A stretch of 64,000 nucleotides of DNA from Azospirillaceae bacterium (GTDB lineage: Bacteria; Pseudomonadota; Alphaproteobacteria; Azospirillales; Azospirillaceae), in contig JAPWJW010000001.1 in assembly GCA_028283825.1 (NCBI GenBank), positions 1,178,001 to 1,242,000 of the forward strand. Reading direction: 5' to 3'. Positions 4,876-56,436 of this stretch are shown here, piece after piece. Each line of letters begins with the position of its first letter. Within the stretch, counting starts at the first letter, position 1. A program made the translations under genes and the position numbers. The notes under the pieces are model-generated. The model had not been told where the DNA came from, did no database searches, and worked only from the letters and a program-made list of their open reading frames with translations.

Positions 4876-6399
4876 ATGTCCGAATCCGCGTCACCGATTT
4901 CACGCCTGGTCATTGTCGGCGGCGGCACCGCCGGCTGGATGGCCGCCGCCTTCCTGTCCACCGTGTTCCGCCAATCCCGGCTGTCGCTGACGGTGGTGGA
5001 ATCGGCGGAGATCGGCACGGTCGGGGTGGGTGAGGCCACCATTCCCCCCATCCAGTTCTTCAACAAGACCGTCGGCATCGATGAAGCGGAGTTCATGCGG
5101 GCGACCGAGGGCACCTTCAAGCTGGGGATCGAGTTCGTGGACTGGGTCCGGCCCGGCCAGCGCTACATGCACCCCTTCGGCCAGCCGGGGCAGCCCCTTC
5201 AGGGTTCGTCCTTCCATGCCTGGTGGCTGCGCCTGAAGGCGGCGGGTTATCCGCACCCGTTGTCCGATTTCTGGATGAGCGAGGTGCTGGCCTACAAGAA
5301 CCGCTTCGACTTCCCCACCACCGATACGCGGTCGCCCAAGTCCAGCCTGTCCTACGCCTATCATTTCGACGCCGGCCTTTATGCCCAGTTCCTGCGGCGC
5401 ATCGCCGAAGGCAGGGGCGTGCAGCGCATCGAGGGCACCGTCCGCCATGTGGCGCTGGATGGCGCCGACGGCACGGTGCAGCACCTGGATCTGAGTGACG
5501 GCCGCCGGGTGGAGGGCGACTTCTTCATCGACTGCACCGGCTTCCGCGGCCTGCTGATCGGCGACGCCCTGGGCCGGGAATATGAGGACTGGTCGCATTA
5601 TCTGCCGGCCAACCGGGCGGTGGCGGTGCCGTCCGCCCGCGTGTCGGATCCGCTGCCCTACACCCGCGCCACCGCGAGGGCGGCGGGCTGGCAATGGCGC
5701 ATCAACCTGCGCCACCGTACCGGCAACGGTTATGTCTATGTCGCCGACCACATCAGCGATGATGAGGCGGCGCGGACCCTGCTGGCCAACCTGGAAGGCG
5801 AGGCGCTGGCCGACCCGCGCTTCCTGCGCTTCACCACCGGCCGGCGCCGGCAGTCGCGGCACAAGAATGTGCTGGCGGTGGGGCTCAGCTCCGGCTTCCT
5901 GGAGCCCTTGGAATCCACCAGCATCCATTTCATCCAGCACGCGCTGATCAAGTTCGCCGCGACCTTCCCCCTGGCCAAGGATGATCCGGTGTCGGCCGGC
6001 CTTTACAACCGCATCATGGCGGATGAGCTGGAACAGGTGCGCGACTTCCTGATCTTCCACTACCACGCCAACCAGCGCGTGGGTGAGCCGCTGTGGGACC
6101 AGGTGCGCACCATGCCCATCCCCGATAGCCTGGCGGAGAAGATGGATCTGTTTCGTCACCGCGGCTGCGCCATCTTCCCCAACCAGACACTCTTCCAGGA
6201 ACCGAACTGGCTGGCCGTCCTGCTGGGCCAGGAATTGACGCCCCAGGGGTATGACCCGCTGGTCGACAATGCCCCCCTGGATGAGATCCGTGCCGGTTTC
6301 GACGGCATGCGCCGCGCCATCCAGCAGGTGGCGGAATCCTGCCGCCCGCATGAGGCTTTCCTGGGCGGGACGCCGGCCGCGGCGAAGGCGCGGGCATGA
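4876..6399 (+). CDS. Flavin-dependent tryptophan halogenase family protein (first copy)
   Basis: A 507-residue FADH2-dependent halogenase-like enzyme. The FAD-binding GGGTAGW motif is at residues 15-21. The lysine that guides hypohalous acid in this family is Lys82 (in GTFKLGI) and the catalytic glutamate is Glu346 (in EPLESTS). The diagnostic WxWxIP motif is altered to WQWRIN at residues 272-277, so the last Pro is replaced by Asn. The ATG at 4876 follows the ribosome site ggggggaa; an upstream GTG at 4792 and an ATG at 4861 are less likely. It lies downstream of a TonB receptor and is coupled to a second halogenase. The substrate is unknown; similar receptor-linked enzymes have been found to halogenate indoles in vitro, but a glycan-linked role is also possible. 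Confidence 0.88.
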   Translation: MSESASPISRLVIVGGGTAGWMAAAFLSTVFRQSRLSLTVVESAEIGTVGVGEATIPPIQFFNKTVGIDEAEFMRATEGTFKLGIEFVDWVRPGQRYMHPFGQPGQPLQGSSFHAWWLRLKAAGYPHPLSDFWMSEVLAYKNRFDFPTTDTRSPKSSLSYAYHFDAGLYAQFLRRIAEGRGVQRIEGTVRHVALDGADGTVQHLDLSDGRRVEGDFFIDCTGFRGLLIGDALGREYEDWSHYLPANRAVAVPSARVSDPLPYTRATARAAGWQWRINLRHRTGNGYVYVADHISDDEAARTLLANLEGEALADPRFLRFTTGRRRQSRHKNVLAVGLSSGFLEPLESTSIHFIQHALIKFAATFPLAKDDPVSAGLYNRIMADELEQVRDFLIFHYHANQRVGEPLWDQVRTMPIPDSLAEKMDLFRHRGCAIFPNQTLFQEPNWLAVLLGQELTPQGYDPLVDNAPLDEIRAGFDGMRRAIQQVAESCRPHEAFLGGTPAAAKARA

Positions 6400-7919
6400 C
6401 GCTACCCGATGGCAACCCACTACGTCGCATCCTCATCGTCGGTGGCGGCACCGCCGGCTGGATGGCGGCCTGCGCCCTGAACCAGGCGGTGCGCGTCGCC
6501 GGCACCCAGGTCCATGTCGTGGAATCGGACGCCATCGGCACCGTGGGGGTGGGGGAGGCGACGCTGCCCGGCATCCGCCAGTTCAACCAGGACATCGGCC
6601 TGGATGAGGCGGCCTTCCTGAAGGCGACGCAGGGCACCTACAAGCTGGGGATCCAGTTCCCGGATTGGCGCGCCAAGGACACGCGCTTCTTCCACGGCTT
6701 CGGTGATTTCATCGTCAACACCGGTCCCTTTTCCACCCTGAACCATTGGCTGGTGGCCCGCGACCTGGCGGGGGAGGCGGCGGTCGGCAGCCTGGACGCC
6801 TATCATATGGCGGCGGTGATGGCGGAGGCCGGGCGTTTCACCACGCCGGAGGACGACCCCCGCTCCCCCTACCATTACTTCAGTTACGCCTATCATTTCG
6901 ACGCCACCCTCTACGCCCGCCTGCTGCGCGCCAAGGCGGAAGGCGAGGGGGTGACGCGGCATGAGGGGCGCATCGTCGGCACCGACCGGGATCCGGAGAC
7001 GGGGTTCATCCAGGCCGTGCGACTGGACGATGGCCGGGAACTGACGGCCGACCTGTTCATCGACTGCTCCGGCTTCGTCTCGCTGCTGGCCGGCCAGGCG
7101 CTGGCGGAACCCTTCGTCGACTACGGCCATTGGCTGCCGGTGGACCGCGCCTGGGCCGTGCCCTGCGCCAGCCATGGGCCCTTGCTGCCCTATACCCGGG
7201 CCACGGCGCTGGAGGGCGGCTGGCGCTGGCGCATCCCGTTGCAGCACCGCACCGGCAACGGCTATGTCTTCTCCAGCGCGCATGTGTCGGAGGAGGAGGC
7301 GCGTCAGCGTCTGCTGGACGGCCTGGATGGCGAGGTGCTGGCCGAACCTCGGCTGTTGCGATTCCGGACCGGTCGGCGTGCCCGCTGCTGGGTGGGGAAT
7401 TGCGTGGCCATCGGTCTGGCCTCCGGCTTTGTCGAACCCCTGGAGTCCACGGCCATATCCCTGATCCAGGGTGGCATCACCCGGCTGATCGGCCTGTTGC
7501 CGGATCTGTCCTTCAACCCCGCGCTGGCGGTGGAGTACAACCGCGTCCAGGCGCTGGAGTTCGACCGCATCCGCGACTTCATCATCCTGCACTATGCCCT
7601 GACCCAGCGCGACGACACGCCCTTCTGGCGGGAACGGCGCGAGATGGCCCTGCCGGATAGCCTGGCCAGCCGTATCGAAACCTTCCGCGAGACGGGCCAC
7701 GTGGTGCTGCTGAACGAGGAGAGTTTCCTCACGCCCAGCTGGCAGGCCCTGTTCATCGGTCTGGGCCTGATCCCCAGGCGCCGCGATCCGCTGATGGCCG
7801 CACAGAAACGGGTGGACGTCGTGGAATCCCTGCGCCTGCGCCGCACCAGCCTGGCCAACGCCGCCGCCCGCCTGCCCACCCAGGCGGAATTCCTGGCCCG
7901 GCGACCGGAACGGCCGTAG
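6396..7919 (+). CDS. Flavin-dependent tryptophan halogenase family protein (second copy)
   Basis: A 507-residue paralogue of the preceding protein. Its start overlaps the previous stop as ATGA, so the two are translationally coupled. GGGTAGWMAA near residues 17-25 binds FAD. The family catalytic pair is present as Lys83 (TYKLGI) and Glu350 (EPLESTA). Unlike the first copy it keeps the complete WRWRIP motif at residues 276-281. The pairing of one intact and one altered copy suggests divergent roles or a hetero-oligomer, which is inference. The stop codon lies inside the first base pairs of a structured repeat (7916-8017). Confidence 0.9.
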   Translation: MTLPDGNPLRRILIVGGGTAGWMAACALNQAVRVAGTQVHVVESDAIGTVGVGEATLPGIRQFNQDIGLDEAAFLKATQGTYKLGIQFPDWRAKDTRFFHGFGDFIVNTGPFSTLNHWLVARDLAGEAAVGSLDAYHMAAVMAEAGRFTTPEDDPRSPYHYFSYAYHFDATLYARLLRAKAEGEGVTRHEGRIVGTDRDPETGFIQAVRLDDGRELTADLFIDCSGFVSLLAGQALAEPFVDYGHWLPVDRAWAVPCASHGPLLPYTRATALEGGWRWRIPLQHRTGNGYVFSSAHVSEEEARQRLLDGLDGEVLAEPRLLRFRTGRRARCWVGNCVAIGLASGFVEPLESTAISLIQGGITRLIGLLPDLSFNPALAVEYNRVQALEFDRIRDFIILHYALTQRDDTPFWRERREMALPDSLASRIETFRETGHVVLLNEESFLTPSWQALFIGLGLIPRRRDPLMAAQKRVDVVESLRLRRTSLANAAARLPTQAEFLARRPERP

Positions 7920-8017
7920 GACGCGCCCCTCGTCCGCCGGAGATTTCTGGGGAGCGTCAGCGGACTGGAAATCGAGGAAGCCAAGCCGGCGGATGCCGGC
8001 GCCCGGCATTTGAGGGG
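7916..8017 (+). repeat. Structured intergenic repeat, copy A
   Basis: One of three related elements in the window (others at 43081-43242 and 56272-56420). It contains the invariant 14-mer CGAGGAAGCCAAGC at 7973-7986. Three short hairpins are visible: ggacg/cgtcc (7919-7923 with 7931-7935), atttc/gaaat (7943-7947 with 7968-7972), and gccggc/gccggc closing a GGAT loop (7985-7990 with 7995-8000). The arms differ from the other copies but stay complementary. This copy lacks the outer hairpins seen in copies B and C. It sits between converging genes and includes the halogenase stop codon. Confidence 0.75.
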
Positions 8018-42665: not shown

Positions 42666-43075
42666 TGGGAACGGGCGCCCCGGAGGATGAGGCGAACAGC
42701 CGGGGCGGCATCCGCCCCCGGCTGACCAAAACGCCGGCCGGCGTGCGGCTGTGCGCGCTGGACGACCTCGCCGAGCCGGGTGCCCGCAACTTCGTGCTGG
42801 AGGTCAAGGGCGACCGTTTCCACGGTTTCGTCGTGCGCCAAGGGAATGCGATCATCGGTTATGTCGATCGCTGTCCCCACGCCGGCGTGCCCTTGGCCTT
42901 CAAGCTGGACGATTACCTGGGGCAGGACCTCACCGGCCGTGACGTCATCCGCTGCGGCTGGCACGGCGCCCTGTTCGACATCGCCGACGGTCGCTGCGTC
43001 GCCGGCCCATGCCCCGGCCAGGGGCTGATCCCCTGGCCGGTGGCGGTGCGCGACGGCTTTATCGAGACGATCTAA
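42665..43075 (+). CDS. Rieske [2Fe-2S] domain protein
   Basis: A 136-residue soluble Rieske ferredoxin-like protein. The cluster ligands are CPHAG and CGWHG, with 20-odd residues between them. It is coupled to the aminotransferase by a one-base overlap. It could donate electrons to an oxygenase of aromatic breakdown that is not in this window. Its stop lies six bases before a structured repeat. Confidence 0.82.
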   Translation: MGTGAPEDEANSRGGIRPRLTKTPAGVRLCALDDLAEPGARNFVLEVKGDRFHGFVVRQGNAIIGYVDRCPHAGVPLAFKLDDYLGQDLTGRDVIRCGWHGALFDIADGRCVAGPCPGQGLIPWPVAVRDGFIETI

Positions 43076-43080
43076 TCCGC

Positions 43081-43242
43081 GCGGCCTTTGATCGTAAACG
43101 ATCAAAGGCCCCCTCAGACGCCGGGCGCCAGCATCCGCTGGCTTGGCTTCCTCGCCTTTCAGTCCGCCTTCGGCTCCCCAAAAGGCTCCGGCGGACGCGG
43201 TCGCGTCCTACCGCGGCACGAGTTCAGATCTCGTGCCGCTGG
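43081..43242 (-). repeat. Structured intergenic repeat, copy B
   Basis: The longest and best-preserved of three copies; read on the minus strand. In order it shows a gcggcacgag hairpin (43230-43239 with 43213-43222), a ggacgcg/cgcgtcc hairpin (43202-43208 with 43193-43199), a cctttt/aaagg-type outer stem around a small inner hairpin, the invariant CGAGGAAGCCAAGC core, a gccagc/gctggc hairpin with GGAT loop (43137-43142 with 43127-43132), and a 13-bp ggcctttg stem (43098-43110 with 43083-43095). It sits between the converging Rieske and galE genes, beginning 10 bases past galE. Confidence 0.8.
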
Positions 43243-43251
43243 TATGGAGCC

Positions 43252-56248: not shown

Positions 56249-56271
56249 GGGCATCATCCCTTCATGTAATA

Positions 56272-56420
56272 CGGCGGCACGAGGCAATGATTCGTGCCGC
56301 TAGAGGCCGGCGACGGCCGGCCCGGAGTGAGCACCGCAGGGCGGAACGAGGAAGCCAAGCTGCCGGATGGCAGCGCCCGGCGATTGAGGGGGCCTTTGGC
56401 CGGTTATGGTCAAAGGCCAG
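56272..56420 (+). repeat. Structured intergenic repeat, copy C
   Basis: The third copy, oriented on the plus strand while both neighbouring genes run on the minus strand. It shows the outer gcggcacga hairpin (56274-56282 with 56292-56300), ggccg/cggcc (56305-56309 with 56314-56318), the invariant CGAGGAAGCCAAGC core, gctgcc/ggcagc with GGAT loop (56359-56364 with 56369-56374), and an 11-bp ggcctttg stem (56391-56401 with 56408-56418, one G-U pair). It ends about 17 bases from the sugar transferase stop. Confidence 0.78.
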
Positions 56421-56436
56421 TGGTACCAGGTCAAAA

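Follow-up and report, generated by a model that had tools for sequence, protein, structure and literature searches.

Short non-coding repeats built around a conserved folded core, with a transposon-like full-length form, in Nitrospirillum and other Alphaproteobacteria

We present a family of short non-coding repeats from the genus Nitrospirillum (Azospirillaceae), which combine a conserved folded core of about 98 nt with, in the full-length copies, one additional hairpin at each end. In our reading, to which we assign a probability of about one half, these repeats are derived from a transposon and their folded core is kept for a putative function of that core. The reading is carried by covariation that is strong both within the genus and across families, and by the observation that the core is as well paired and as loop-conserved in copies without end hairpins as in copies with them.

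A first-pass annotation of the window, that is, of the whole 64,000-nucleotide stretch of DNA analysed here, had described an element in three copies with a shared exact 14-mer and hairpin arms that change in pairs. The sequence does contain the three copies, with their arms as quoted. The arms of the hairpin with the GGAT loop read gccggc/gccggc in copy A, gccagc/gctggc in copy B and gctgcc/ggcagc in copy C, those of the first hairpin read ggacg/cgtcc in A and B and ggccg/cggcc in C, and the 3' hairpin of B and C has ggcctttg/caaaggcc; the stem quoted as atttc/gaaat is present in A. The accompanying comparison of an "outer stem" holds for A and B only, C having a shorter second hairpin. The 14-mer has three exact matches in the window (four with up to two mismatches, against 0.73 expected) and occurs 29 times exactly in the 7.16-Mb genome, against 0 for a reversed control pattern; the family comprises hundreds of copies instead of three. 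The features of the three copies are collected in Table 1. The stop codon of the opposing gene (TTA, 43073-43075) lies 7 nt past the 3' end hairpin of copy B, and no target duplication is visible around copy C, which is preceded by TAA (56267-56269, a TNA triplet) and followed after its 3' end by CCA. Folding energies of the single copies differ modestly from those of shuffled sequences (z -2.43 for B, -0.75 for A and -1.37 for C) and are weak support; the structural support comes from covariation.

Table 1. Features of the three repeat copies in the window (stop/stop, both neighbouring genes end towards the copy)
Feature	Position	Strand	Basis or remark
Copy A, core only, without 5' or 3' end hairpin	7917..8015	+	covariance-model match 103.9 bits
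Copy A, gene context			stop/stop; the core opens with TAG, which is at the same time the stop codon of the called gene upstream
Copy B, core, long-form second hairpin	43112..43210	-	covariance-model match 114.2 bits, fold
Copy B, 5' end hairpin, starts TACCAGCGGC	43211..43244	-	read from sequence
Copy B, 3' end hairpin	43083..43111	-	read from sequence
Copy C, core, short-form second hairpin	56304..56389	+	covariance-model match 66.4 bits
Copy C, 5' end hairpin, starts TACGGCGGCACG	56270..56303	+	read from sequence
Copy C, 3' end hairpin and terminal GGTA	56390..56425	+	read from sequence

Three hairpins (H1, H2 and H3) and conserved unpaired sequence make up the core. Across 29 aligned copies the order is H1 (mostly with a GAC-type loop), GCCGGAG, H2, CGAGGAAGCCAAG, H3 (loop mostly GGAT) and a tail with the consensus CGCCCGGCGnYTGAGG; H2 is either long, then containing GGGGA...GGACT, or short, and is missing from one of the 29 copies. 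An outer pairing (GCCGG/CCGGC, or GCC/GGC) shows next to no variation and counts as a candidate part of the fold. These 29 copies served as the seed alignment and were picked by the exact 14-mer, so that the invariance of this stretch among them follows from the selection, and variants, CGAGGATAGCCAAG for example, are under-represented. The covariance model built from the seed (R1) has at least 150 matches genome-wide, and each of the 150 listed has an E below 5e-15. Within 1.264 Mb of contiguous stretches of the same genome it finds 120 copies at E<=1e-4, including 69 in 400 kb of contig C3, a stretch chosen for its many copies, 17 across 400 kb of contig C1, 6-11 per 100 kb in four other stretches and three in the window, and extrapolation gives about 420-680 copies genome-wide.

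Some copies are arranged in groups. Tandem arrays of whole cores at a spacing of ~107-138 nt were seen in G003 (L162:19554-19864), in G006 (L116:8037-8271) and in the genome of the window (L350:17343-17694), and the IMG/VR contig L306 has a tandem array of five core units at about 5999-6466. Head-to-head pairs of cores, with starts about 140-180 nt apart and some with one shared 5' hairpin, are reminiscent of REP doublets and were found in the window's genome (L094:12258/12401, L103:7113/7261, L090:5782/5955) and on the IMG/VR contigs L296, L298 and L312. On the viral contigs L296, L298, L309 and L312 a 102-aa ORF adjoins such pairs; these contigs are phage- or GTA-like, the GTA label being guessed from gene sizes. 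In another genome (G002:C4 near 663 kb; L147, just upstream of 3146) a full core is directly preceded by roughly seven short repeats in a row, e.g. TAAGCCCCGACTGGG, that look like one half of H1.

The family is widespread. All six other genus members searched, G006 being one, have at least 70 matches each, and 27 of the 59 genomes searched have matches, the genome of the window included. A pattern for the 3' half of the element occurs on at least 120 contigs, and among the 80 contigs listed are ones from Nitrospirillum, Niveispirillum, Azospirillum sp., Telmatospirillum, Magnetospirillum, Roseomonas, Falsiroseomonas, Roseococcus, Rhodovarius and Sphingomonadaceae. A second model (R2) found the core in 32 of 385 sampled alphaproteobacterial genomes (the window's genome and its known relatives included), the 32 belonging to 18 families, under strict filters and with at most 12 places scored per genome. 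In plasmid and phage collections copy B is without match at E 1e-5.

Covariation was scored at three depths. In the 29 seed copies 94.9% of the pair cells hold standard pairs and the covariation score is 0.340, against 0.096 after shuffling and at most 0.084 when the structure is slid along the alignment; double changes occur in 12 of 25 pairs, a count which shuffles reach in 7 of 500 trials, and further pair types show no excess (23 vs 23.2 in shuffles). In 135 copies from six species, in an alignment fitted to the covariance model, 98.0% of cells are paired, the score is 0.535 vs 0.153 shuffled, and 495 cells carry double changes, against 135.5 shuffled and at most 90 slid. In 28 copies of the short form, taken from other genera and families, aligned with no use of the model and compared with slid versions of a structure hand-drawn on one sequence, 90.2% of cells are paired and the score is 0.408, against 0.119 shuffled and at most 0.098 slid; H2 is just 67.4% paired in this cross-family alignment. 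The fold appears, moreover, to be selected on one named strand, as RNA or as one strand of DNA. On that strand 72 G·T cells stand against 18 A·C cells in the genome of the window, and 40 against 16 without one U·G-rich pair (p=0.0018, copies not being independent), and the excess is informative because G-C pairs that mutate alike on both strands would yield the two kinds of cell in equal numbers. The share of G·U pairs is 1.6% in H1, 1.8% in H3 and 6.1% in H2; it is 5.8% in 7 distinct tRNAs from the same loci.

Stems at the same site often differ wholesale between species, as whole blocks. Over 71 same-position copy pairs, 223 double changes kept the pairing, 63 changes were one-sided and 33 broke it, a sum that counts tandem copies more than once and in which neither copies nor species pairs are independent. 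The block differences suggest an exchange of whole stems or units, and part of the covariation may hence reflect exchange of intact units instead of stepwise compensation in place. The first-pass reading of covariation as selection on structure is thus supported in part, in that the signal exceeds the shuffled and slid controls and the fold is strand-specific. A process that keeps arms complementary with no selection on the fold, either hairpin-specific mutation by quasi-palindrome template switching or gene conversion, would agree with these counts of kept pairing and with changes in H3 that are mostly from G-C to C-G in the 135-copy alignment; we nevertheless hold it to be very improbable, as the conserved unpaired sequence and the surplus of G·T cells relative to A·C cells are signs that one strand is under selection.

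In full-length copies the core is joined by one further hairpin on either side. Some of the Nitrospirillum copies have such additions, the 5' hairpin reading TACCAGCGGCACGAG... and the 3' hairpin ...GATCAAAGGCCGCGCGTA, and lengths are 156-169 bp for copies C and B; strict patterns for the end hairpins (one for each end) matched 8 times (5') and 11 times (3') beside cores and never alone. The clearest picture comes from a genome of another family (G045), whose near-identical copies define the ends of the unit. A 5'-end pattern gave 16 copies there, 13 of them exactly 146 bp long; of the other three, two run into the end of a contig and one is missing its 3' portion. The 146-bp unit has a hairpin at each end, starts with TAC and ends with GG(T/C)A, and identical 3-bp TNA triplets lie on both sides of 9 of the 10 copies with both flanks readable, the exception being L405; the chance of such duplications is about 2e-14. 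Fixed length, end hairpins and TNA duplications together show that the unit was inserted in G045 as a transposon of the MITE type. The ends in Nitrospirillum follow the TNA rule in decayed form, with TNA at 9 of 17 ends on the left and 13 of 21 on the right (background 2.9%) and identical triplets on both sides in 3 of 8. The inverted ends, TACYRRG, are imperfect, and a fixed-length non-coding unit with inverted ends and a target duplication, by which MITEs are recognised, is found in full-length copies only. Many sites filled in one species are without the element in another, so few individual copies can be essential. Filled and empty sites within Nitrospirillum did not yield the exact ends, since the intergenic regions were too diverged, the polarity of the change was ambiguous and several "empty" sites were deletion remnants.

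The copies abut gene ends and favour gaps between convergent genes. By the calls of a simple codon-model gene caller, one of the 120 copies overlaps a gene and 118 have two called neighbours, which are stop/stop for 58, stop/start for 32, start/stop for 21 and start/start for 7. A copy is present in 50 of the 177 convergent gaps, in 53 of the 661 tandem ones and in 7 of the 173 divergent ones (p=2e-10 for convergent vs divergent, p=3e-11 for convergent vs tandem; tandem vs divergent not significant by gap count, p=0.10); these are raw counts per gap, whatever its length, and the sequence outside elements amounts to 36 kb in convergent, 104 kb in tandem and 49 kb in divergent gaps. Where the core faces an opposing stop codon, the distance to it is 14 nt or less in 41 of 79 copies and 35-48 nt, roughly what the 3' hairpin would span, in 21. 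Targeting of TNA probably explains part of this placement, as stop codons in either direction (TAA, TGA, TTA, TCA) are TNA triplets; it does not by itself explain the group within 14 nt, in which there is no room for a 3' hairpin, and the closeness of core-only copies to stop codons is left unexplained by it.

The same context bears on the proposal that the element is a cis-regulatory RNA, similar to a riboswitch, a thermometer or a terminator, with its 3' GAGG as the ribosome-binding site of the next gene. Six of the 39 cores facing a start codon end in the appropriate position, 9-11 nt before the called start, where the element's GAGG would be that binding site, and both the conserved single-stranded bases and the strand-specific fold are in keeping with such a role. 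Two of the sites with GAGG before a start hold a copy in all six species compared, and the genes behind them presumably are rdgB and moeB. We nonetheless consider the proposal unlikely for the family, because 58 of 118 copies sit in convergent gaps and a further 21 are turned towards an opposing stop, the flanked genes inspected seem from their beginnings to be unrelated housekeeping genes, and no obvious T-run directly follows the core in the copies listed, by eye. Orientation in tandem gaps (32 sense vs 21 antisense, p=0.17) has no significant bias, a point against our own preferred reading, given that a strictly cis-acting RNA would lead one to expect otherwise.

Half of the copies (60 of 120) are without both end hairpins, by a test that triggers at 0.25% of 400 random places. 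Their cores are 98.4% paired and 96.4% conserved in the loops, compared with 97.8% and 97.1% in the 60 copies with at least one end hairpin, although this intactness may stem from a model that favours intact copies or from replacement that mimics purifying selection. As the core stays intact in copies that lack the ends, it seems to be kept for itself. Between same-site copies of the sister species G002 and G006, 15 of 360 conserved unpaired sites differ (4.2%), against 20% of other unpaired and 12.4% of paired sites and 9.6% of third codon positions; the conserved sites were defined on the family, and replacement by another intact copy would look alike. Detached fragments are rare by strict motifs. 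Retroposition with 5' truncation was considered and finds no support: the 3' tail motif is present in 58 cores and at 4 places outside, 3 of which are no more than 50 nt away from a core, while for the first-hairpin motif the numbers are 43 in cores and 2 outside, with strict motifs that miss degenerate pieces.

The core could alternatively belong to a purely selfish MITE with no host function, in which it would be the structure, as single-stranded DNA or cruciform, that the transposase recognises or assembles on; only intact units would move, decayed ones would be deleted fast, and copies without end hairpins would be derivatives or a second mobile form. This is a serious rival, which we judge possible yet doubtful. 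It accommodates the TNA duplications and the fixed length, the presence and absence of copies between species with deletion remnants at some sites, the orientation in tandem gaps and the tandem copies at 107-nt spacing in G003. It accords poorly with the core-only half of the family, equally intact though without the ends beside which the target duplications lie. The best 60 copy-to-copy matches listed, too, lack dispersed paralogues within any one genome beyond tandem or inverted neighbours, and dispersed copies are at most about 94% alike, so that not all of them are recent.

A REP-type TnpA/RAYT transposase, which the first-pass annotation had suggested as a possible driver, did not come to light: Y1_Tnp was found in 0 of 7 genomes of the genus, with controls positive in 5 of 14, and in 0 of 5 genomes of a copy-bearing genus (g12). 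Over all 59 genomes 18 were positive, six of them with the element (G010, G011, G022, G033, G035, G041). TNA targets are associated with subgroups of IS5, and the TNA duplication observed would suit IS5-type progeny. DDE_Tnp_1 was found 0 times in G045 (77% complete), G078 and G228, and in five other genomes no element with matching ends was seen at the 30 DDE_Tnp_1 loci covered, where the two best inverted repeats listed per locus never start with TACC. Eleven core-flanking genes, judged by eye on their first 70 residues as possible hidden transposases, did not look like one. For a HEARO-type guide RNA of IscB, RF02033 was without match at E<=10 in the genome of the window, and PF14239, on the IscB side, was found nowhere, the control included.

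For an element of the REP/RAYT type moved by a Y1 (HUH) transposase, or a HEARO-type guide RNA of IscB/TnpB, speak the high copy number, intergenic position, hairpins and a conserved GAGG at one end like the tags of REPs (in the account of PMC3733652), as do the six element-bearing relatives with Y1_Tnp. We rate this as extremely improbable given the Y1_Tnp result in all 7 genus and all 5 g12 genomes, the lack of a HEARO match and of any Rfam match at the gathering score, and the length of REPs, given in the same account as only 20-40 bp. That the first-pass annotation knew of no named family agrees with Rfam 15, in which the window and 20 loci gave 0 matches at the gathering score and, below it, weak hits such as CC3552 (21.2 bits vs 50; best E in the genome of the window 2.7) and Xoo8 (13.9 vs 90). 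The open-licence literature, in which an older description could be missed, yielded no description of the repeat.

Under the reading we prefer, transposon-derived repeats with a core kept for its own sake, the full-length unit would have been moved as a MITE by a putative transposase acting in trans, and the end hairpins would later have been lost while the core was retained because its folded single strand does something useful. The likeliest form for the core to act in would be RNA, located in transcripts at their 3' part or between genes, with protection or processing of 3' ends, or insulation between neighbouring genes, as candidate roles, and gene conversion or replacement, by passing stems as blocks from one copy to another, would keep the family uniform in fold and diverse in arms. 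The fuller version, by which the core is a structured RNA, present in many alphaproteobacterial families, distributed by the MITE to hundreds of gene ends per genome, selected after the loss of the MITE's ends and active at gene junctions and the 3' ends of transcripts, with stems exchanged and a putative partner binding its conserved loops, is put forward tentatively. If the core is functional, the family would be a clear test case of mobile repeats becoming genome-wide RNA elements, and the covariance models already allow annotation of a part that is absent from Rfam.

The closest kinds of known repeats are the ERIC and Correia MITEs and the CIR repeats. ERIC, in the passages of the sources that treat it, are 127-bp intergenic repeats of Enterobacteriaceae and Vibrionaceae, present in 30 to 711 copies depending on the species, which alter mRNA decay when located at gene 3' ends (PMC2229807, PMC10969869). 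The repeats described here are similarly short, non-coding, mostly intergenic and folded. They differ in having three separate hairpins besides the end hairpins, where other bacterial repeats, as characterised in the review, pair their 5' with their 3' end (PMC2229807), and in the TNA duplication, the conservation of the core across families and the half of copies without ends. Short length, mobility, inverted ends and hairpins in RNA are features they share with Correia/NEMIS and RUP (PMC2229807, PMC10969869). RUP is the one bacterial repeat that the 2007 review, in its overview, credits with a known matching IS (PMC2229807); it targets TA and has a proposed IS630 partner, unlike the present repeat, which targets TNA and for which the Y1 and DDE_Tnp_1 searches gave no partner. 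High copy number, intergenic position, head-to-head pairs and arrays recall REP/RAYT (PMC3733652), whose REPs, of 20-40 bp, bear GTAG or CGTC tags by that description (PMC3733652), while the element here is longer and multi-helical, with no Y1 transposase in 7 of 7 genus genomes.

CIR, the CcrM-associated intergenic repeats that occur in alphaproteobacteria such as Caulobacter and Brucella, are portrayed in the review as units of about 110 bp, absent inside genes, with two long hairpin arms and a linker (PMC2229807). The alphaproteobacterial hosts and the hairpin arms are common to both, and GANTC, the CcrM methylation site (PMC2229807), lies in 18 of 56 5' end hairpins here (3.6% expected), so that a link of the transposon form with CcrM methylation is possible. 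The GANTC in the terminal loop that marks CIR, in contrast, has its counterpart in only 1 of 120 cores (8% expected) and in 0 of 20 3' end hairpins, and what is a linker in CIR is here a conserved three-hairpin fold, CIR being compared by description only. We accordingly file the repeat as a new form of MITE-type repeats and, CIR being judged by description, not as a member of that group.
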